A stretch of DNA of 64,000 nucleotides. Source: Microbacterium salsuginis (GTDB taxonomy: Bacteria > Actinomycetota > Actinomycetes > Actinomycetales > Microbacteriaceae). The stretch lies in assembly GCF_012524205.1 (NCBI RefSeq), contig NZ_JABACI010000005.1, positions 434,001 to 498,000 on the forward strand, read 5' to 3'. The translations under genes and the position numbers were made by a program. Shown piece after piece: positions 27,313-36,297 of this stretch. The number at the start of each line of letters is the position of its first letter. Position 1 is the stretch's first letter. The notes beneath the pieces were generated by a model, which made no database searches, was not told where the DNA came from, and was given only the letters and a program-made list of their open reading frames with translations.

Positions 27313-28287
27313 TCAGACCCACTCCCTGCGCACGGCTTCGGCTCCGAGCTGCATGCGCGTGGTCACACCTGCGATGTCCATGAGGTCGGCGACCCGACGC
27401 TGGACCGTGCGCAACGAGATTCCCAGCTGCCCTGCCGCTGCGGCATCCGTCACTCCCATGAGAAGAAGGTGCAGCAGATCGCGGTCGATGTCTTCGGCGA
27501 CAGGGGCGGCGGCCAGCGGCAGGAACTCCGTCGCGGCGCGCCAGTACTCCTCGAAGATCGACACGACGAGATCGAGCAGGCCGCTGGGGTGGATCAGCAG
27601 CGCGCCGAATCCGTCGTCCTCGCCCTGCGAGTGCATCGGCACGAGCGCCATCTGATCGTCGGCGATGAACATGCGGGTCGGGAGCGTCGGAAGGACGCGG
27701 ATCTCCTCGCCGATCTGCGACATGTCTCGCGCCGCCGCGAGGAAGCCGGGGCGCTCGAGCACCGCGCTCTCGACGATGACGCGATAGCGCACGCCGCGCG
27801 CGAGAGCCCGATCCTCCTCGATGTTCTCCTCCCCGCTGAGCAACGCGATCTCGTTCAGCACCAGCACTCGCACCTGCGTGGTCGAGGCAGCCTGAAGCTG
27901 GGCGACACGCTGCCGGACCGCGTCGTCGCCGATCACCACGTCGACCACATCGGCGACGCTGCGCTGCTCCGCCGAGCGGCGGTACAGGTCGCTCAGCTCG
28001 AGGAGTGCCTCGTGCGCCCGGCTGATGCCGCGCTCGCGCTCGAGGAGCAAGGGGCGCAGGGCGATGTTGGGTGGGGATGCCGTGAATCGATCGCTGCTCG
28101 CCGCCTGACGTGCGAGCAATCCGAGGCGCTCGAGCTCATCGACGATCGGCTGCACGCGTGGCAGCGACATGCTGAGGCTGCCGGCGATCTCGGCGGTCGA
28201 GGCGGACGGCTGCTGCAGCACCCGCCGGTAGACGGCAGTGTGTGCCTCATCGAGTCCGAGTGCTTCGAGCACAGTGACCTTCCCCAT
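27313..28287 (-). CDS. TrmB-like and LuxR-type dual HTH regulator
   Basis: 324 residues. The N-terminal winged helix LEALGLDEAHTAVYRRVLQQ ... TAEIAGSLSMSLPRVQPIVD (~5-60) is TrmB-like. A central domain has a PLD-like sensing fold, and a C-terminal LuxR-type HTH (LLMGVTDAAAAGQLGISLRT VQRRVADLMD, ~275-310) follows. Start ATG 28287 begins MGKVTVLEAL. It is divergent from the large secreted subtilase with 118 bp between the starts. Regulators of this build adjoin exported hydrolase genes in actinobacteria, so it probably controls the protease. Confidence 0.8.
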   Translation of the reverse strand: MGKVTVLEALGLDEAHTAVYRRVLQQPSASTAEIAGSLSMSLPRVQPIVDELERLGLLARQAASSDRFTASPPNIALRPLLLERERGISRAHEALLELSDLYRRSAEQRSVADVVDVVIGDDAVRQRVAQLQAASTTQVRVLVLNEIALLSGEENIEEDRALARGVRYRVIVESAVLERPGFLAAARDMSQIGEEIRVLPTLPTRMFIADDQMALVPMHSQGEDDGFGALLIHPSGLLDLVVSIFEEYWRAATEFLPLAAAPVAEDIDRDLLHLLLMGVTDAAAAGQLGISLRTVQRRVADLMDIAGVTTRMQLGAEAVRREWV

Positions 28288-28318
28288 GCGTCCATCGTCG
28301 CCTGCGCGGCATGGCGGA

Positions 28319-28346
28319 TGGTGGCCATGGCATTTCTCCGCCACCA
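28319..28346. promoter_or_regulatory. Dyad in the divergent regulator/subtilase promoter
   Basis: TGGTGGC and GCCACCA, 14 nt apart, lie midway between the divergent starts. A perfect palindrome TCGATATCGA follows at 28371-28380. Either may bind the divergent regulator; not demonstrated. Confidence 0.4.
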
Positions 28347-28405
28347 CTCTAGGCCCGCGGGGGACGATGCTCGATATCGACCCCTACCCCCAGAGAGGCT
28401 CACGC

Positions 28406-31400
28406 ATGTCACGACCCCAGCCCATCGGCCGCCGCGTGCGCCCGAGCGTCGCCGCCACAAGCGGCCTCGCGATCGGCATCGCAGGCATCGGCCTCGCCAC
28501 GCTTCCGGCGACCGCCGTCACCGATGTCGACGGTCCCCCCGCCCCCGCCGCGGCGGTCGCCGGCAGTTCTCACTCCGTCACGCTGATCACCGGCGATCGC
28601 GTCACGGTGACCGACTTGTCCGACGGCACGCACACCGTCGACGTCGAGACGGCCGTGCCCGGCGCCGGCGTCCGGACGTATCAGGTGGGCGACGAGCTGC
28701 ACGTGGTGCCCGACGCTGCACTGCCCTACCTGGCCTCCGATGCACTCGATCAGGACCTCTTCAACGTCTCGCTGCTCATCGAGTTCGGCTACGACGACGC
28801 GTCGGTGGATGCGACGCCCATCATTCTGGAACAGGATGCCGACACCGCTCGCGCTTTCTCTGCACCCGCGCCGGGTCTCGAGGTGCAGGCCGAGCTGCCC
28901 AGCATCGGCGGCGCCGCCGCGACCGTCGGGCACGCCGAAGCCGCATCGGCGTGGAGCGCGCTGACTGCGCCGAGCGCGCGCTCGTTCTCAGCCGCCCCTG
29001 CGCTCGCGAACGGCATCGAGGCGATCCACCTCGACGGCAAGGTGAAGGCCTCGCTCGACGGGAGCGTCGGTTACATCGACGCCCCCGAGGCATGGGCGGA
29101 CGGCTACACCGGTGACGGCGTGACGGTGGCCGTGCTCGACACCGGATACGACGACACCCACCCTGATCTGCAGGGTCGCATCCTCGCCGGCTCGCAGAGC
29201 TTCGTGCCCGGCGAAGGGGTCGCCGACGACCCCAACGGTCACGGCACGCATGTCGCCTCGACCGTCGCAGGCACCGGCGCCGCCTCGGACGGCACGCACC
29301 GTGGCGTCGCCGACGGCGCCGATCTGCTGATCGGCAAGGTGCTGGGTGCGGACGGCTACGGACAGGACTCCTGGATCATCGACGCCATGGAGTGGGCCGG
29401 CCAGAACGCGCCGATCGTGTCGATGAGCCTCGGGTCGATGTCGCCGTCCGACGGCAAGGACCTCATGGCGGAGTCGCTGAACCAGATCGCCGAATCCACC
29501 GGCGCCCTGTTCGTGGTCGCTGCAGGCAATGCGGGTTCGCCCGAGTCGATCGGCGCCCCCGGGTCCGCTGCACAGGCCTTCACGGTCGGCTCGGTGGATG
29601 ACCCGTCCGGTGCGCTGTCGTACTTCACCAGCCAGGGTCCGCTCTCGCGCTCCGGTGCCCTGAAGCCCGATGTGACCGGCCCCGGCAACGACGTCACCGC
29701 TGCGCGTTCGGCGGACAGCGGCGGCGAAGGCGCCTACATCGCGATGAGCGGCACGTCGATGGCGACGCCGCACGTCGCGGGTGCCGCGGCGATCCTGCTC
29801 AGCGCGAATCCGGACTACACGACGGAGCAGCTGAAGGCCGCGCTGGCCAGCACCGCGACCGACCTCGGGTACACCGCGTACCAGGGCGGCACCGGGGTCA
29901 TCGACGTGGACGCCGCGCTCGAGGCTCCCGTCGTGGCATCCGGTTCCGGCGATTTCGGCATGCTGATGTGGGGCGAGGAGCCGACGCCGGTCGAGCGCGC
30001 CATTGAATACACCAACCGCACGGATGCCGAGATCACGGTCGCGCTCACCGCGACGCTGACCGACACCACGCCCGGCGGCGACGCGGCACCTGGTCCGTTG
30101 TCAGCCGGCATCGCGTTCGACGCGTTGACGCTCGGAACGGACACGCTCACGATTCCCGCGGGCGCAAGCGCGACCGTCACCATGACCGTGGACCCGGCAA
30201 AGGTCCCTGCGGGCACGCAACTGTCGGGTGCGCTCGTCGGGTCAGTGGACGGCGTGGCCGTGACGCGCACGGCGCTCGGCACGATCGCCGAGGCCGAGCG
30301 CTACGACCTCACCATCACGGCGACGGACTTCGAGGGCAACCCCGTGAACGCGTACGCGATGGTGTGGGATGCCGCGGCCCAGTGGGTCGAGCCGGTCCTC
30401 GTCGAAGGCGAGACGACGCTGCGCCTGCGGAAGGGCGACTACTCGGTCATGTCGTACATGGACGTCAATCGGACGCCGGACACGCTCGCGATGGTGCTGA
30501 CGGGTGACCCGAAGCTTTCGCTGACCGAGGACTCGACGGTGGCGCTCGATGCCCGCGCGGCCGAGGAAGTGACGGTCGACGTCGGACGTGACGACCTCGA
30601 GCAGTCCTTCGCCCGCATGGACTTCCAGGCCGACGAGTTCACCGCGAGCGCGATGGTGCCCGTTCTCGTCGACGAGCTGTGGGCTCAGCCCATGAAGGTC
30701 GACGACGCTGAATTCGACTTCACCACGCGCTGGCGCCTGTGGGAGCCGATGCTGACGGTCGCGGCCGGCAAGAAGCCGCTCGACATCGTGCTCCAGGTCG
30801 GATCGACGTTCCTCGACGGCGAGATCAAGGCTGCAGCTGTCGATGCCGGGCAGGGAACCGTCGACGAGATCGCCGCGGCCGGCGTCGAGGGAAAGGTCGC
30901 TGTCGTGACGCGCTCCGAGACCGTGACGCCCGGACAGGCGGCCGCCAACGCGGCATCCGCCGGTGCGAAGCTGCTCATCCTGGTCAACGACGCGGACGGC
31001 GAGCTGAGCACCTGGGTGGGTTCGGACGACTTCGAGTCCGACGCGCCCATCGCGGTCGCCGCCGTCAGCGGCGTCGAGGGCCGTGAACTGCTCGCGCAGA
31101 TCGCGAACAAGAAGGTGACCGTCACCGCAGTCGGCGACGAGTACGCAGACGTGGTGTACGACATCGCCCGCTACAGCGAGGGCGAGATCCCGCAAGACCT
31201 GGCCTACGCGCCCGCGAACCTGACGCGCATCGATACGACCTACCACGGTCAGACCGAGCTGCTCGGCGAGTTCCGGTACGACTTCGTGCCCGGCGCGCAG
31301 TACGGGGCGGGGTACTTCATGATCGCCGAACGGGGAGTGACCCGGGAGGAGTGGGTGAACACCGAGGATCTGCGCTGGAACCAGGGCGTCGGCGTGGAGT

Positions 31401-32263
31401 CCGTCCGATGGGAGATGCGCGACATCCTCCGCACGTACGAGCCCGGCCAGGAGCTCGAGGCCGAGTACTTCGGCGGGATCGTGCGTCCCTACGTCGGACT
31501 CGGTTACTGGGTGCCCTACCGTGTGTCGGACTACGCCCAGATCAACGTTCCGAGCTGGGCGGACGGCGGCAGCGCCGACCACACCGGCGCGTTCGACACC
31601 TGGATGGAGCCGGCGACGGTGCAGCAGCTGACGGACGTGTACATCGACGGTCGGCTGGTCAAGCAGGCAAGCGCCCAGGGTGCGAGCCTGTACGACTTGC
31701 CCGACGGCGAGCAGGACTGGCGCGTGGTGAGCACCGCGACCCATGACGGAGCGCACCTCACCGGTTCGACGAGGACCGTCAGCGAGTGGACCTTCCGTTC
31801 GGCCGGGCAGCTCGGCGACTGGGAGAACCGGCTCCTGCCGATGATCCAGGCGTTCTACGACGTCGACGTCAACGCCGAGAACCTCGTGGGTGAGGGACGA
31901 CGCAAGGGCTCCAGCATCCCACTCGGTCTCGAACTGGGCCACGTCGCCGGCACGGTACCCGCCGGCGCGATCACCGACGCCACGCTCGAGGCCCGTACCG
32001 CCGGGGGCGAGTGGGTGCCGGTGTCCCTCGCACCGGCCACCACGGACGCCCCGACCGGACCGGTCGAGGGCGACGGCGACATCTTCGTCACGTCTCGCGC
32101 GTGGGTCAGCGGGTACGCCGCTCAGATCCCGGTGTCCGACAAGGGCGGCTGGGTCGACCTGCGGGTGACGGCGACGGATGCCGAGGGCAACACGTTCTCA
32201 CAGGAGATCGAGAAGGCGTTCCAGGCGACGCCCGTCAAGGGCGGCGGCAACGGCAGGGGCTGA
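28406..32263 (+). CDS. Large secreted S8 (subtilisin-like) serine protease
   Basis: 1285 residues. A signal peptide with an Arg-rich n-region (SRPQPIGRRVRPS) and hydrophobic core (GLAIGIAGIGLATL) is followed by a propeptide. The catalytic triad is Asp ~245 (AVLDTGYDD), His ~279 (NGHGTHVAS) and Ser ~451 (SGTSMATPHVAG), with oxyanion Asn in VAAGNAGS. A PA-like domain lies at ~819-905 (GVEGKVAVVTRSETVTPGQA), with beta-sandwich regions before and after it. There is no LPXTG, so it is released. AGAGAGG is the SD for ATG 28406. Probably nutrient scavenging under control of the divergent regulator. Confidence 0.93.
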   Translation: MSRPQPIGRRVRPSVAATSGLAIGIAGIGLATLPATAVTDVDGPPAPAAAVAGSSHSVTLITGDRVTVTDLSDGTHTVDVETAVPGAGVRTYQVGDELHVVPDAALPYLASDALDQDLFNVSLLIEFGYDDASVDATPIILEQDADTARAFSAPAPGLEVQAELPSIGGAAATVGHAEAASAWSALTAPSARSFSAAPALANGIEAIHLDGKVKASLDGSVGYIDAPEAWADGYTGDGVTVAVLDTGYDDTHPDLQGRILAGSQSFVPGEGVADDPNGHGTHVASTVAGTGAASDGTHRGVADGADLLIGKVLGADGYGQDSWIIDAMEWAGQNAPIVSMSLGSMSPSDGKDLMAESLNQIAESTGALFVVAAGNAGSPESIGAPGSAAQAFTVGSVDDPSGALSYFTSQGPLSRSGALKPDVTGPGNDVTAARSADSGGEGAYIAMSGTSMATPHVAGAAAILLSANPDYTTEQLKAALASTATDLGYTAYQGGTGVIDVDAALEAPVVASGSGDFGMLMWGEEPTPVERAIEYTNRTDAEITVALTATLTDTTPGGDAAPGPLSAGIAFDALTLGTDTLTIPAGASATVTMTVDPAKVPAGTQLSGALVGSVDGVAVTRTALGTIAEAERYDLTITATDFEGNPVNAYAMVWDAAAQWVEPVLVEGETTLRLRKGDYSVMSYMDVNRTPDTLAMVLTGDPKLSLTEDSTVALDARAAEEVTVDVGRDDLEQSFARMDFQADEFTASAMVPVLVDELWAQPMKVDDAEFDFTTRWRLWEPMLTVAAGKKPLDIVLQVGSTFLDGEIKAAAVDAGQGTVDEIAAAGVEGKVAVVTRSETVTPGQAAANAASAGAKLLILVNDADGELSTWVGSDDFESDAPIAVAAVSGVEGRELLAQIANKKVTVTAVGDEYADVVYDIARYSEGEIPQDLAYAPANLTRIDTTYHGQTELLGEFRYDFVPGAQYGAGYFMIAERGVTREEWVNTEDLRWNQGVGVESVRWEMRDILRTYEPGQELEAEYFGGIVRPYVGLGYWVPYRVSDYAQINVPSWADGGSADHTGAFDTWMEPATVQQLTDVYIDGRLVKQASAQGASLYDLPDGEQDWRVVSTATHDGAHLTGSTRTVSEWTFRSAGQLGDWENRLLPMIQAFYDVDVNAENLVGEGRRKGSSIPLGLELGHVAGTVPAGAITDATLEARTAGGEWVPVSLAPATTDAPTGPVEGDGDIFVTSRAWVSGYAAQIPVSDKGGWVDLRVTATDAEGNTFSQEIEKAFQATPVKGGGNGRG

Positions 32264-32277
32264 TCCCACTCGCCACC

Positions 32278-32317
32278 GGCAGGGGCTCCATCCGCTTCGG
32301 CGGGTGGAGCCCCTGCC
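32278..32317 (+). terminator. Hairpin terminator after the subtilase
   Basis: GGCAGGGGCTCCA, a 14-nt loop, TGGAGCCCCTGCC: a perfect 13-bp stem starting 14 bp after the stop codon. Confidence 0.85.
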
Positions 32318-32414
32318 CCGTCTCCCCCGCCTCCCACCGCCCTGTCGTCCGTCGCAAGCGGCCGTGACCCGGCGAATCGGAGTGGCCACGTGCGACGGTT
32401 CGATGCCGCGCGGG

Positions 32415-33239
32415 TCACCACATCGCGGCGACGAGGTCGGCGAACACGGACTCGGGGTCGTTGTCGAGGCCACGGCGCGCGAACCACGTCGAGACGTTGA
32501 TGACATCGCGGTACATGAAGTCCATGCCCTGCGGGTTGGCGGCGACATCCACGATCTGCGGCAGATCGATCACCACGATGCGGCCGTGGTGCTCGAGCAG
32601 GTTGTACGGCGACAGGTCGCCGTGCGCGAACCCCGCGCGAGCGAACGCCGTGAGGATCTCGACGACTTGGCGGTACGCATCGGCGAGCTCCCCGCCGTGC
32701 AACCGCGACTGCGCGAGCCGCGGCGCGGCCGCGCGCCCGTCGCCGATGAACTCCATCAGCACCTCGGTGTCGCTCACCTGCACCGGATAGGGCACCGGCA
32801 CGCCTGACCGCCAGGCGAGCGACAGCGCCGCGAACTCGCTCGCCGCCCAGTGCCCGGCGGCCACGGAGCGGCCGTGCGCCGATTTGCGGCCGACCGCGCG
32901 CACGTCGCGCGTGTTGCGCATCACGCGCCCCTCCTCGTAGCTTCCGGAGCGGTGGAAGTCGCTGTGATGCGTGCTGCGGTAGCGCTTCGCCGCGAGCAGG
33001 GTGCCGGTCGTGCCGGGAACCGCGCGCTCGATCAGGTAGAGGTCGGCCTCCTTGCCGGTCTTGACGATGCCGAGCTCGGTGTCGAAGGCGCCGGCCTCGG
33101 TGACCACCCATTCGGGATACGGCAGCGGTCCGCGCTGGGTGGGAGAGGATGCCGGCCAGGTGGTCCAGCGTTGATCGGGCCCCGGCTCGAGAAGCGGGCT
33201 GTCCGAAGGAAACGTTGCGTCGAAGCGCAGAGATGACAT
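32415..33239 (-). CDS. RIO1-type serine protein kinase
   Basis: 274 residues. GIVKTGKEADLYLI is the RIO glycine-poor ATP loop and LLAAKRYR contains the ATP-contacting Lys ~85. FAHGDLSPYNLL places the catalytic Asp at ~208, and IVVIDLPQIVD supplies the metal-binding Asp ~225. The activation loop is lacking, as usual for RIO kinases. The role in bacteria is not established. GGAG lies 9 nt before the ATG but is buried in a hairpin (33249-33263). A 20-codon leader ORF precedes the hairpin, suggesting translational control. Confidence 0.88.
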   Translation of the reverse strand: MSSLRFDATFPSDSPLLEPGPDQRWTTWPASSPTQRGPLPYPEWVVTEAGAFDTELGIVKTGKEADLYLIERAVPGTTGTLLAAKRYRSTHHSDFHRSGSYEEGRVMRNTRDVRAVGRKSAHGRSVAAGHWAASEFAALSLAWRSGVPVPYPVQVSDTEVLMEFIGDGRAAAPRLAQSRLHGGELADAYRQVVEILTAFARAGFAHGDLSPYNLLEHHGRIVVIDLPQIVDVAANPQGMDFMYRDVINVSTWFARRGLDNDPESVFADLVAAMW

Positions 33240-33248
33240 CGGGGAAGA

Positions 33249-33263
33249 CTCCAGTGACTGGAG
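33249..33263 (-). promoter_or_regulatory. Hairpin that sequesters the RIO kinase ribosome site
   Basis: In the mRNA sense CTCCAG-TCA-CTGGAG: a perfect 6-bp stem with a 3-nt loop. The right arm contains the GGAG expected to act as SD for the kinase start at 33239. It begins 10 nt after the stop of the leader ORF, within the footprint of a terminating ribosome. Confidence 0.55.
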
Positions 33264-33273
33264 GCCGCCGATC

Positions 33274-33336
33274 TCAGTGGGTGCGGGCGGCCTCGCGGGA
33301 AAGGGAACTGACGCGAGACATGGCGAAGACAGCCAT
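33274..33336 (-). CDS. 20-residue leader peptide of the RIO kinase gene
   Basis: MAVFAMSRVSSLSREAARTH, preceded by an unusually strong SD (GGAAGGAGG, 6-nt spacer). TAGAGT further upstream (about 33383-33388, minus strand) could be the -10 box. The peptide has no signal sequence; it is Ser/Arg-rich and ends 34 bp before the kinase start. The strong SD on such a short frame and the hairpin that follows argue that its translation, rather than its product, matters. It could alternatively be a genuine microprotein. Confidence 0.55.
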   Translation of the reverse strand: MAVFAMSRVSSLSREAARTH

Positions 33337-33435
33337 CGTGTTCCTCCTTCCGGTCGGGGTGCGGCGCACCGGTGCGGCGTTCACTCTAGCGACATTCCGC
33401 TCCCGCGCACCAGCGGTCGCGCTACCTTCGTGCAC

Positions 33436-33789
33436 ATGAGCGGATCGGATGCGACCGGCGGTGGTGTCGTCCGCTTCTGCCGCAGTCGCAGCGCGGGTCG
33501 TCGCTGCACGCGGCCGCTCGGGCACCCCGGGCTGCATCGCCATCGCACGATCATGTGGACGGATGCCTCTGCCGACCCACCGCGATGCCCGGGCTCCGGC
33601 GAGCCGGGCGAGCCGGCCGCTCGCCTGCCCGACGGCTACCCACACGGCCGAGCGCTGTGCGCGCGCTGCCAGCGGTTCGTGCCCCTCGACGGTGCCGGAC
33701 GACTCGCCGAGCACGACACGACGGATGCGCTCGAAACGGATGCCGAGGCCGGCAGCCGACGCGAGTGGTTCAACCTGCACGGCTGGTGA
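33436..33789 (+). CDS. Small Cys/His-rich hypothetical protein
   Basis: 117 residues. Cysteines in VRFCRSRSAGRRCTRPLGHP, PPRCPGSG and LCARCQRF, together with HPGLHRHRT, suggest one or two zinc-binding sites. The C-terminus ends EWFNLHGW. TACCTT ends 7 nt before ATG 33436 with no SD, consistent with leaderless translation. It is divergent from the RIO kinase leader. No named family. Confidence 0.6.
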   Translation: MSGSDATGGGVVRFCRSRSAGRRCTRPLGHPGLHRHRTIMWTDASADPPRCPGSGEPGEPAARLPDGYPHGRALCARCQRFVPLDGAGRLAEHDTTDALETDAEAGSRREWFNLHGW

Positions 33790-33819
33790 CGGGCTGGATC
33801 GTTCGACAAACCGTACGTG

Positions 33820-34257
33820 TCAGCGCAGCGCGGTACGACTCGTGGCGGTCGCTTCGAGCGCGACGCCGTCGGGCACGAACAGCGTGACGACGGGCGGATG
33901 CCATGTGCCTGCGACCGTCACCCGCGCCGAGACGCCGTCGGGCGTCTCGGCCGATAGGAGCACCGCGTCCCGGCCGACCTCGGCGACCATCAGTTCCGCC
34001 TGCCGTCGGACTGCCGCATCCGTCAGGGTTGCGAGCGGTGCACCGTCGACCACTGTCACCTCGAAGCCATCCGCCGCAGCGAGGGCGGCAGCATCCGCCA
34101 GCGCATCCAATCGCTTCTGCGACAGGTACAGGCTCGTCGCGGCGACGCAGATGAGGATCGCGACGAGCGCGAGCACCGCGTAGCCGAGGGTCAGGATCAG
34201 GATGCTGCCCTCGTCGTCCTGTCCGTGCTCGGCGCGGGAGTCGCGCACGCGTGTCAC
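33820..34257 (-). CDS. TadG/Rv3654c-like pilus-neighbourhood protein
   Basis: 145 residues from GTG 34257, which overlaps the stop of the preceding TadE gene (GTGA). ILILTLGYAVLALVAILICV is a single N-terminal TM, followed by [20 protein letters not shown], the hallmark of TadE/TadG pseudopilin-like proteins. The remaining ~75 residues form an exported beta-rich domain. Last gene of the tad operon. Confidence 0.8.
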   Translation of the reverse strand: MTRVRDSRAEHGQDDEGSILILTLGYAVLALVAILICVAATSLYLSQKRLDALADAAALAAADGFEVTVVDGAPLATLTDAAVRRQAELMVAEVGRDAVLLSAETPDGVSARVTVAGTWHPPVVTLFVPDGVALEATATSRTALR

Positions 34258-34727
34258 GACGCCCCCCAGAATCGCGAGACCTTGTGTGCTGCCGATCCCT
34301 CCACCGGGATCGACGCGATCTGGTCGAGGCCCAGCACGGGCGGCACGAGCGGCAGTGTCACGGCGCTGCGAACGGTCACGATCAGCGTTGCTCCGGCGGC
34401 GGGGCACGACACGCCTGCCGGCCGGCACGTGATATCGACGTCGACGTCGTCGAGTCCGTACTCGTCGCGCACCGAGGAGAGAACGCGTTCGGCTCGCGCG
34501 TCGGCATCGGCGGCGTCGACCGCGGTCGAGATCGCGCGCGCGAGGTGCCGCGCCCCGGCCTCGGCGCCGAGAGACTGCTGCTGGATCGACCCGAGTGCGA
34601 CGACGAGATAGACCAAGGGCACCAGCATCAGCAGACCCACGAGGATGAACTCCAGTGCTGCAGAGCCCCGATCGTCCGCGCGGTCCGGGTCGGCATCGGT
34701 GTCAGTCGAACGACTCGATGGGCGCAT
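34254..34727 (-). CDS. TadE family pseudopilin
   Basis: 157 residues. DDRGSAALEFILVGLLMLVP gives the Gly-x-x-x-x-Glu processing and assembly motif followed by the TM helix of TadE-like pseudopilins. Two cysteines (ITCRPAGVSCP) may form a disulfide outside. It overlaps its neighbours on both sides, by 26 bp with the upstream TadE gene and 4 bp with the downstream gene, so translation is coupled. Confidence 0.85.
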   Translation of the reverse strand: MRPSSRSTDTDADPDRADDRGSAALEFILVGLLMLVPLVYLVVALGSIQQQSLGAEAGARHLARAISTAVDAADADARAERVLSSVRDEYGLDDVDVDITCRPAGVSCPAAGATLIVTVRSAVTLPLVPPVLGLDQIASIPVEGSAAHKVSRFWGAS

Positions 34728-35136
34728 GGGCGATCACCTCCATCGATCTCGGAGACCCGAGCAGGCCGACCAGCGGCAGGGTCGCGGCAACCCGCACCTC
34801 CACCGCGGCGTGCCCGAGGTCGGTCGTCTCGCGGACGCTCACATCGGCGGCGTATTCGGCACCGATGGTCCGCGTCACGATGTCGCGCGTGCGCGCTGCT
34901 CCCTCATCGAGCGACGTGTCGGCCAGCGCCGCATGGTAGGCGCCCTCGACCGCAGCATCGTGCACGACGTTGCGCACGTACACGGCGAGGCCGAACTGCA
35001 GCACACCGAGCGTCAGCACTGTCAGGAGTGTGCCGACCAGCACGAACTCGACCGGACTGGAGCCCTCTTCATCCCTGCCCGCCGCCGCGAAGCGGGCACG
35101 CAGGCCCGTCGCGAGACGGGCACGGAATCCGCGCAC
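34702..35136 (-). CDS. TadE family pseudopilin
   Basis: 144 residues. DEEGSSPVEFVLVGTLLTVL is the TadE motif with the conserved Glu and TM helix. The rest is an exported domain containing VVHDAAVEGAYHAALAD, the usual helical segment. It probably primes or stabilises the Flp pilus. It lies between the small Flp-like gene and the second TadE gene. Confidence 0.85.
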   Translation of the reverse strand: MRGFRARLATGLRARFAAAGRDEEGSSPVEFVLVGTLLTVLTLGVLQFGLAVYVRNVVHDAAVEGAYHAALADTSLDEGAARTRDIVTRTIGAEYAADVSVRETTDLGHAAVEVRVAATLPLVGLLGSPRSMEVIAHAPIESFD

Positions 35137-35139
35137 GTC

Positions 35140-35343
35140 CTAGAAGCCCGAGACCCGCTCGATGGCCTGTTCGAACAGCCCCGCCAGCGCCGGGCCGGCG
35201 AGCGCCCAGATCACCACGACCAGCCCCGCCGTCATGAGCGTGATCAGCACCCAGCCGGGCACATCGCCTCGCTCGTCATCCGCGAGGTCCTGCCCCGAGG
35301 CGCGCAGCCTGTCGATCGCTCGACGCATCCACGTCATGTTCAT
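35140..35343 (-). CDS. Flp pilin-like small protein (DUF4244-like)
   Basis: 67 residues. A short basic N-terminus and DDERGDVPGWVLITLMTAGL lead into a single hydrophobic helix (VVVIWALAGPALAGLF). The size and position between TadC and the TadE genes fit the major Flp-type subunit of actinobacterial tad loci, with Gly-Asp in place of the usual GxxxxEY. GGAAGGAGAAGGAG precedes ATG 35343; ATG 35337 is an equally placed alternative. Confidence 0.72.
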   Translation of the reverse strand: MNMTWMRRAIDRLRASGQDLADDERGDVPGWVLITLMTAGLVVVIWALAGPALAGLFEQAIERVSGF

Positions 35344-35367
35344 CTCCTTCTCCTTCCGACCGTGAGG

Positions 35368-36297
35368 TCAGCCGATACCCAGTCGAAGCATGAAGATCCC
35401 GGGGAACACCGCGAACAGCACGCTCAACGGCAGAATCAGGAAGACCAGCGGCACCAACATGTAGATCTCTTTGCGGCCTGCCCGCTCGATGAGGCCGCGC
35501 TTGGCGTCCTCGCGCGCATCGAGAGCCTGTGCGTGGAGCACGTGCGCGAGCGGTGCGCCCCGATCGATCGCCGCGACCAGCTGGTCGACCGACCGCGAGA
35601 GCGCCGGAATCTCGAGGCGCGCCGCCATCCGCCCGAGCGACTCCGACAGCGGCGATCCGGTTCCCACGGCGACCACGACGCCGCGCAACTCGGCGGTGAG
35701 CTCACCCGCCCCGACATCTCCGACGCGCCGCAGCGAGTCGAGGATCCCTTCGCCCGCCGAGAGGCACAGTGCGAGGAACTCGAGCACCGTCGGCAGCTCT
35801 TCTTCGATGCGGCCGACTCGCGCCCGCGAGGCGCGGGTGAGCCACGCGTCGCACGCGAACGCACCGCCGACCGCGGCGAGCGGCGGCAGCAGGCCCAAGG
35901 CAGGCGAACCACGGCCCAGCAGCACGAGCCCCACGACCAGCGCCCCGCCCACCGCGAGCCCGACCACCGCCCACGCGAGCTGCCTGCCACGGAAGCGCGC
36001 AGCATCCATCGTCCACCCGGCCCGCTGCAGGCGCCGAGTCACCGCTTCGTCTCCGCCGATCACGCGCGCGAACCGGCGCTGCAGCACCGCCCACGCCAGA
36101 GTCGGGTCGTACCCCGGGCCGGTCGTCACATCGAGCCCGCGCGGATCGGTGACGTCGCGGATGTACGGGGCGATGCGCCGGGCAAGGCTGGGTGCACCCC
36201 AGCGCGGGGCGAGCGAGAGCAGCAGACAGACCCCGACTCCGAGCGCCGTGCCGAGCACGACCGCGTAAGCGACCTCCCCCGCGACGCCGCCGATCAC
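35368..36297 (-). CDS. tadC: Type II secretion F-family protein TadC
   Basis: 309 residues from GTG 36297, which overlaps the tadB stop (GTGA). One N-terminal TM and two central TMs (LAWAVVGLAVGGALVVGLVL) are followed by the T2SF domain (EELPTVLEFLALCLSAGEGI ... LSRSVDQLVAAIDRGAPL), and the C-terminal TM is LVPLVFLILPLSVLFAVFPG. TadB and TadC form the inner-membrane platform for Flp pilus assembly. Confidence 0.9.
   Translation of the reverse strand: MIGGVAGEVAYAVVLGTALGVGVCLLLSLAPRWGAPSLARRIAPYIRDVTDPRGLDVTTGPGYDPTLAWAVLQRRFARVIGGDEAVTRRLQRAGWTMDAARFRGRQLAWAVVGLAVGGALVVGLVLLGRGSPALGLLPPLAAVGGAFACDAWLTRASRARVGRIEEELPTVLEFLALCLSAGEGILDSLRRVGDVGAGELTAELRGVVVAVGTGSPLSESLGRMAARLEIPALSRSVDQLVAAIDRGAPLAHVLHAQALDAREDAKRGLIERAGRKEIYMLVPLVFLILPLSVLFAVFPGIFMLRLGIG

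Follow-up and report, generated by a model that had tools for sequence, protein, structure and literature searches.

A conserved leader ORF and a candidate ribosome-controlled RNA switch upstream of RIO1-type kinase genes in Actinomycetota

Described leader systems and the RIO1 kinase locus

Translation attenuators of the ermC and cat type consist of a leader ORF, alternative stems and a sequestered Shine-Dalgarno (SD) sequence, and a drug-dependent stall of the ribosome in the leader induces the downstream gene. The leader that precedes a RIO1-type kinase gene of Microbacterium salsuginis likewise contains an ORF, alternative stems and a sequestered SD, and a stall is predicted to induce the kinase. 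Drug-dependent stalling is established for the former and putative for the RIO1 leader, which exhibits a valine excess but no sign of purifying selection. The closest described system found is the toiL uORF of topAI-yjhQ in Escherichia coli, where the uORF itself pairs with the ribosome-binding site of the target and stalling of a ribosome lifts the repression (PMC12121999). The two systems are alike in that the translation state of a uORF sets the pairing around a downstream ribosome-binding site, and they differ in geometry: the end of the RIO1 leader pairs with an anti-SD arm, such that a ribosome that finishes the leader should repress and an early halt should induce, and the target is a RIO1 kinase (PMC12121999). 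Amino-acid leader-peptide attenuators for trp, cys, ilv and leu are described for Actinobacteria (PMC1262725). These share with the RIO1 leader an ORF and alternative structures in actinobacteria, with valine as the possible regulatory codon, but a codon run is present in a minority of the RIO1 leaders and the target is a kinase; the word "kinase" is absent from the text of PMC1262725. No RIO1 leader in bacteria appears among the literature matches listed. An Rfam search of positions 30000-36000 of the window (the whole 64,000-nucleotide stretch that was analysed) at E <= 1 returns two matches, both far below the gathering score and outside the leader, and eight RIO1 loci yield no match at the gathering score.

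The kinase gene occupies positions 32415..33239 on the minus strand (start ATG at 33239) and encodes 274 residues. The product matches the Pfam RIO1 domain (PF01163) with an E value of 8.9e-32 and 110.7 bits against a cut-off of 22, and its translation contains TGKEAD, HGDLSPYNLL and VIDLPQ, which we take to be the RIO catalytic motifs; on the domain score and these motifs, the gene identity proposed in the initial annotation stands. A PDB search with the kinase matches Rio1 chains (1zp9, 4otp), which places the archaeal and eukaryotic RIO1 kinases in the same family by sequence, and the match to the NCBIfam PA4780-type model reaches 142.1 bits, less than the model's cut-off of 350 bits. In archaea and eukaryotes the RIO kinases are ribosome-assembly factors; to our knowledge, no role of a RIO1 kinase in bacteria has been described.

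Among named relatives, those nearest to the kinase belong to Microbacterium, and the occurrence of the gene is patchy both in the genus (69/198 genomes) and in the family (19/120 genomes, two of these 19 being partial or a paralogue). Matches are present in 102/347 genomes at the order level and in 79/345 at the class level, many of the latter being weak matches to ordinary Ser/Thr kinases. A shared gene neighbourhood was sought in the 1.5-kb flanks of the RIO1 loci, and the largest cluster of neighbours comprises 11 of 108 loci. In the window, a 1341-codon ORF (28238..32263, plus strand) is convergent with the kinase gene.

A leader ORF retained upstream of RIO1 kinase genes

The 20-codon leader ORF noted in the initial annotation is present as described: MAVFAMSRVSSLSREAARTH, followed by TGA, extends over 33274..33336 on the minus strand (ATG at 33336), has equivalents in relatives, and is preceded by the near-perfect SD GGAAGGAGG (33343..33351), separated from the leader ATG by 6 nt. 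A predicted -10 hexamer, TAGAGT, is located upstream of the ORF (33383..33388), and 98/102 sequences of Microbacteriaceae type contain a TANNNT hexamer that begins 30-70 nt 5' of the leader ATG, 77 of these hexamers clustering sharply at -60 to -51. This placement indicates that the leader is probably transcribed, and a transcription start downstream of the leader, which would have spoken against the initial proposal, is not indicated.

The upstream regions of RIO1 genes were searched jointly for a strong-SD leader and a kinase start bearing an SD; in this search, gene starts are picked by SD energy and the best pair is retained at each locus. After removal of a second copy of the window locus (L001), a partial match (L019) and a Ser/Thr kinase paralogue (L020), a leader is found at 219 of 224 RIO1 loci, some of which were reached twice, and merging of identical upstream regions reduces the 219 to 212 distinct ones; the five loci at which this search finds no leader are L083, L095, L168, L225 and L226. 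Because the joint search picks the best pair, the same search was run on other ORFs. An ATG leader with an SD energy <= -7.9 kcal/mol is present in 196 of the 212 distinct regions, all from Actinomycetes, and in 0/117 control ORFs, which are ORFs of at least 150 codons from the window and from the flanks of RIO1 loci, picked greedily by length (some may be spurious), with the kinase and ORFs overlapping it excluded. In other classes of the phylum, a strong-SD leader is present at 20 of 22 RIO1 loci (the control genomes being in-class only), and at the two exceptions (L272 and L276) the available upstream sequence is limited to ~150 nt. The sampled Actinomycetota thus retain a leader ORF with a strong SD before their RIO1 kinase genes, and on sequence grounds a conserved and translatable leader ORF lies 5' of the kinase, as expected for an attenuator.

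For the pairing and peptide analyses, the 212 regions, all distinct, were sorted into 103 of Microbacteriaceae type, including L033, and, among the others, 44 with a separate leader and 65 with a leader that overlaps the kinase; L047 is excluded from the pairing (A:B and B:C), peptide and valine counts of the Microbacteriaceae type, which therefore comprise 102 sequences. When a model of the leader element (R1) is searched against 58 genomes, all 14 matches with E <= 2e-4 precede RIO1; several of these are themselves sequences of which the model is built, and one (G326) comes from another family. Eight weaker R1 matches among those listed (L242-L249) were inspected as possible occurrences of the element at other genes; none is alike, and they were taken as chance. 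One of these, in which a short ORF precedes the gene of a membrane protein, resembles kdpF-kdpA.

Alternative pairings around the kinase Shine-Dalgarno sequence

The 6-bp hairpin described previously, CTCCAG-TCA-CTGGAG (33249..33263, minus strand), is present in the sequence, is supported by fold and pairing, and begins 10 nt past the leader stop. Its arms are CTCCAG (33263-33258) and CTGGAG (33254-33249; positions counted by hand), and the 3' arm contains the kinase SD GGAG (arm C, 33249..33252), 9 nt upstream of the kinase ATG. The initial annotation missed a second stem, in which arm A (GAGGCCGCC, 33286..33294, leader codons 15-17) is complementary to arm B (GGCGGCCTC, 33261..33269), such that the last codons of the leader and a post-stop arm form a perfect 9-bp stem in the window. 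Arm B overlaps the SD hairpin through its CTC, which is part of the hairpin's 5' arm, and B can therefore pair with A or with C, never with both.

The conservation of leader and stem among close relatives, proposed earlier as a check, is observed for both. When the register is chosen for each sequence separately, the best six-pair A:B core is whole in all 103 Microbacteriaceae-type sequences except L026 and L047, the latter lacking a convincing A:B stem. In a common register the core is whole in 97/102 sequences and all nine pairs form in 43; L026, L071, L140, L144 and L155 are short of one or two core pairs. For a swap test, the 102 rows were merged to 96, arms starting with GGCC were moved two bases to the common register, and the B arms were dealt among species. 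The observed arms form 7.66 Watson-Crick pairs of 9 versus 7.23 for swapped arms (sd 0.057, 0/5000), although this test, like the shuffles below, ignores relatedness among the sequences. In alignment A1, comprising 49 of the 96 sequences chosen for diversity and length, 93.2% of the A:B cells pair, versus 33 to 58.5% in slid controls; four pairs exhibit two-sided change, a number reached in 1/500 shuffles, and the covariation score is reached in 0/500. On the kinase tree, pair 5 underwent 13 changes in A and 9 in B, as counted by parsimony on a single protein tree, and is mispaired in 0/96 sequences. The outer pairs are loose, with position 7 paired in 84/96 and position 9 in 51/96.

The B:C pairing also exceeds the swapped expectation (10.87 vs 9.47, 0/5000), and the extension past GGAG covaries, as can be seen by eye in GGTGA:TCACC (L010), GATGA:TCATC (L062) and GCGG:CCGC (L012). 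The support on A1 is weaker than for A:B: 84.9% of the cells pair, the covariation score is reached in 6/500 shuffles, the two-sided pairs in 80/500 and further pair types in 439/500. The compensatory stem changes anticipated for this locus are thus found, clearly for A:B and more weakly for B:C. In enforced folds, A:B is lower in 48/102 sequences and B:C in 53/102, with a gap within 3 kcal/mol in 67, which suggests that the modelled energies are close to balance. Taken at sequence level, these results argue for two mutually exclusive RNA structures in the separate leaders, one over the leader and one hiding the SD.

Separate leaders of other families exhibit the same pairings with unrelated letters. 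The leader end pairs with B (20.86 vs 16.36, 0/3000, n=44), for example as GTTCCCACCGC:GCGGTGGGGAC, CGCCCGCCGG:CCGGCGGGCG and TGAGGGGCC:GGCCCCTCA, with only short matches in L045 and several more, and B pairs with C (14.21 vs 12.84, 1/3000, n=42, L169 and L170 being excluded from this test). In L088, L092, L093 and L098, A and C are one heptamer, GAGGAGC, complementary to B. The 65 overlapping leaders extend past the kinase start, and B:C pairing is unsupported in them (9.88 vs 10.71, reached by 3000/3000); mutually exclusive A:B and B:C structures are not indicated by these sequences.

A third pairing involves the leader SD. In the window, its predicted partner is a CU-rich segment within the leader ORF (GTTCCCTTTCC, 33298..33308), as indicated by the MFE fold and swap tests. 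In the overlapping leaders, where this is the one pairing seen, the leader SD pairs with a CU-rich stretch just 5' of the kinase SD (18.95 vs 15.56, sd 0.34, 0/3000; CGATCGGAAGGA:TCCTTCCGATCG in L179), and two controls in which the leader SD was paired with other stretches are negative in this group. Over all 212 regions, the downstream partner scores 18.56, versus 13.64 for an upstream control and 16.77 for swapped partners (0/1000). The effect is modest within the Microbacteriaceae-type leaders (16.71 vs 15.98, 8/3000), and it is also observed outside the class (20.35 vs 18.36, 12/3000, n=20).

In other classes, a scripted scan detects a GC-rich hairpin followed by a T-rich tail in the interval between the leader ORF and the kinase gene of L258 and L261, and similar stretches are seen by eye in L272 and L276. 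These terminator-like hairpins suggest that, in those classes, a leader of this type governs the termination of transcription, not SD access. From the sequences compared, the leader seems to be the constant part of the system and the output form the variable part.

A proposed switch and other readings of the leader

The pairings are best explained by a ribosome-controlled RNA switch, composed of the leader ORF and three competing RNA segments, in which completion of the leader turns the kinase off; we regard this reading as fairly likely. Arm A starts 22 to 0 nt before the leader end in 102/102 Microbacteriaceae-type sequences, which implies that a ribosome finishing the leader would cover A at least partly. 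B would then close on C, the kinase SD would be hidden, and the kinase would be off. If the leader is not started, or if the ribosome halts in the valine-rich first half, A would be left free, and since transcription of A and B precedes that of C, the A:B stem would form, leaving the SD open and the kinase made. The CU-rich segment is predicted to hold the leader SD and would gate translation of the leader. The overlapping leaders may have the same sign through leader ribosomes that run over the kinase start, and the terminator-like forms through loss of an antiterminator. Candidate signals are valyl-tRNA, an exit-tunnel drug or a shortage of ribosomes.

We infer the sign of the switch from this geometry, and a mask model agrees with it weakly. 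In this model, the unpaired fraction of the kinase SD is 0.26 in the free RNA, 0.30 with a ribosome at codon 9 and 0.23 with a ribosome at the stop, the last state being lower in 70/103 sequences; the corresponding values for the window are 0.16, 0.20 and 0.04. The amount of RIO1 kinase is probably adjusted by the cell to the state of its own translation, and the retention of the leader across the phylum, while the stem letters and the output form change, suggests that kinase output is tied to translation. More speculatively, and with considerable doubt, the kinase may be released phylum-wide when ribosomes cannot finish the valine-rich leader, whether from few initiation-ready 30S subunits, from short valyl-tRNA or from a drug, and bacterial RIO1 would in that case act in translation stress or in 30S maturation and would itself be subject to feedback from translation. 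If true, the bacterial role of RIO1 would be akin to that of the RIO kinases of archaea and eukaryotes. Identifying what stops ribosomes from finishing the leader would be a route to the role of bacterial RIO1. As RNA biology, the proposed switch would be an attenuator whose arm A can mimic the target SD, and whose direction is such that a ribosome at the leader end should repress and an early-halted one should induce.

A narrower form of this switch, nested within it and therefore not to be weighed as a separate competitor, assigns the signal to a stall in the valine-rich first half, with an early stall turning the kinase on, either through valyl-tRNA shortage, as in amino-acid leaders, or through an exit-tunnel drug, as in leaders of the Erm type; we propose it tentatively, and a plain shortage of initiating ribosomes is an alternative signal. 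Codons 2-9 are enriched in valine, in frame, in each of the three in-class groups that were counted, namely 26.7% vs 6.0% in base-shuffled sequences for the Microbacteriaceae type, 17.3% vs 5.3% for the other separate leaders and 13.1% vs 5.3% for the overlapping leaders. The remaining two leader frames contain 0.9 to 2.9% and codons 2-9 of the kinase 0.3 to 2.7%, and the value is 22.9% in 35 mutually distant Microbacteriaceae-type leaders. The predominant valine positions are codons 4 and 6 for the Microbacteriaceae type and codon 5 for both remaining groups; at least two valines are present in 82/102, 23/44 and 11/65 leaders, respectively, and a longest run of at least three in 13/102, 6/44 and 0/65 (19/211 in total). 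This in-frame excess is, at the level of sequence, further evidence that the leader is translated, and it suggests a stall site 5' of arm A. Codon 15 is the first codon of arm A in the window, and a ribosome halted at codons 4-9 would therefore leave the arm free. VFV-like stretches occur in the leaders and recall those of Erm leaders. That one leader can sense many drugs is shown by toiL (PMC12121999).

The substitution pattern of the leader codons points in the other direction. In the codons before arm A, 51 disjoint nearest pairs carry 82, 86 and 78 substitutions at the three codon positions, and their 30 synonymous and 137 nonsynonymous codons (18% synonymous) compare with 28% predicted under equal rates. 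The all-pairs count has the same direction (305 synonymous, 2020 nonsynonymous), and three other families, with small numbers, give synonymous-to-nonsynonymous ratios of 7:17, 3:26 and 5:8. The even change by codon position and the low synonymous share thus give no sign of purifying selection in these substitution counts. Additionally, GTC is the commonest valine codon in these leaders and its frequency may reflect a need at the nucleotide level, and the window leader contains only two valines.

The initial annotation suggested a translational attenuator or coupler, which was right in kind and a good reading of the locus, although it was incomplete and its sign is probably wrong. In the coupler form, the SD hairpin would be closed at rest, and a ribosome reaching the leader TGA would open the hairpin or reinitiate, which would turn the kinase on. 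The free MFE fold of the window is indeed the B:C form, with the kinase start codon and the leader TGA in the base of the hairpin; the stop lies only 10 nt from the hairpin core, and a ribosome at this stop would also overlay part of B and the hairpin base. However, coupling leaves the conserved A:B stem unexplained, since a ribosome at the stop would prevent A:B. The distance from the stop to B has a median of 6 nt, is at least 10 nt in 27/102 sequences and reaches 65 nt, which indicates that a ribosome halted at the stop codon would not consistently extend to the hairpin, and the overlapping leaders end 3' of the kinase start. We therefore consider coupling unlikely: the proximity of stop and hairpin core stands, but a ribosome at the stop that covers A should probably favour the SD hairpin instead of melting it.

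A purely structural 5' UTR, such as a thermometer or an mRNA stabiliser with a leader that is hardly translated, would fit the covarying leader-SD pairing and a leader SD that is predicted to be mostly paired (0.22 unpaired), but it is improbable, since a start codon, a strong SD, a stop beside arm A and in-frame valine would be needless without translation. That a conserved small protein precedes the kinase by chance, the stems being a side effect of its coding sequence, would account for the strong SD, the wide retention and the valine excess, but is very improbable given that the codons change freely while the arms change letters together.

Several individual loci bear on the history of the gene. 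At G141:C1:789547-790514, the leader element is whole (E 7.2e-17) and the kinase match is split into two pieces in different open frames, which indicates that this copy is perhaps decaying. L033, a MAG assigned to Candidatus Corynebacterium faecigallinarum, carries a Microbacteriaceae-type kinase (63% identity) with a leader and a compensated A:B stem, GAGGTCGTC:GACGACCTC; the kinase is far from the named lineage, which points to gene transfer or to a mis-binned contig. Finally, L037, L038, L039 and L102, among them Actinoallomurus and Kribbella, share the near-identical overlapping leader MAIT(V/A)LRHVR, and its common presence in these two genera hints at transfer between orders.
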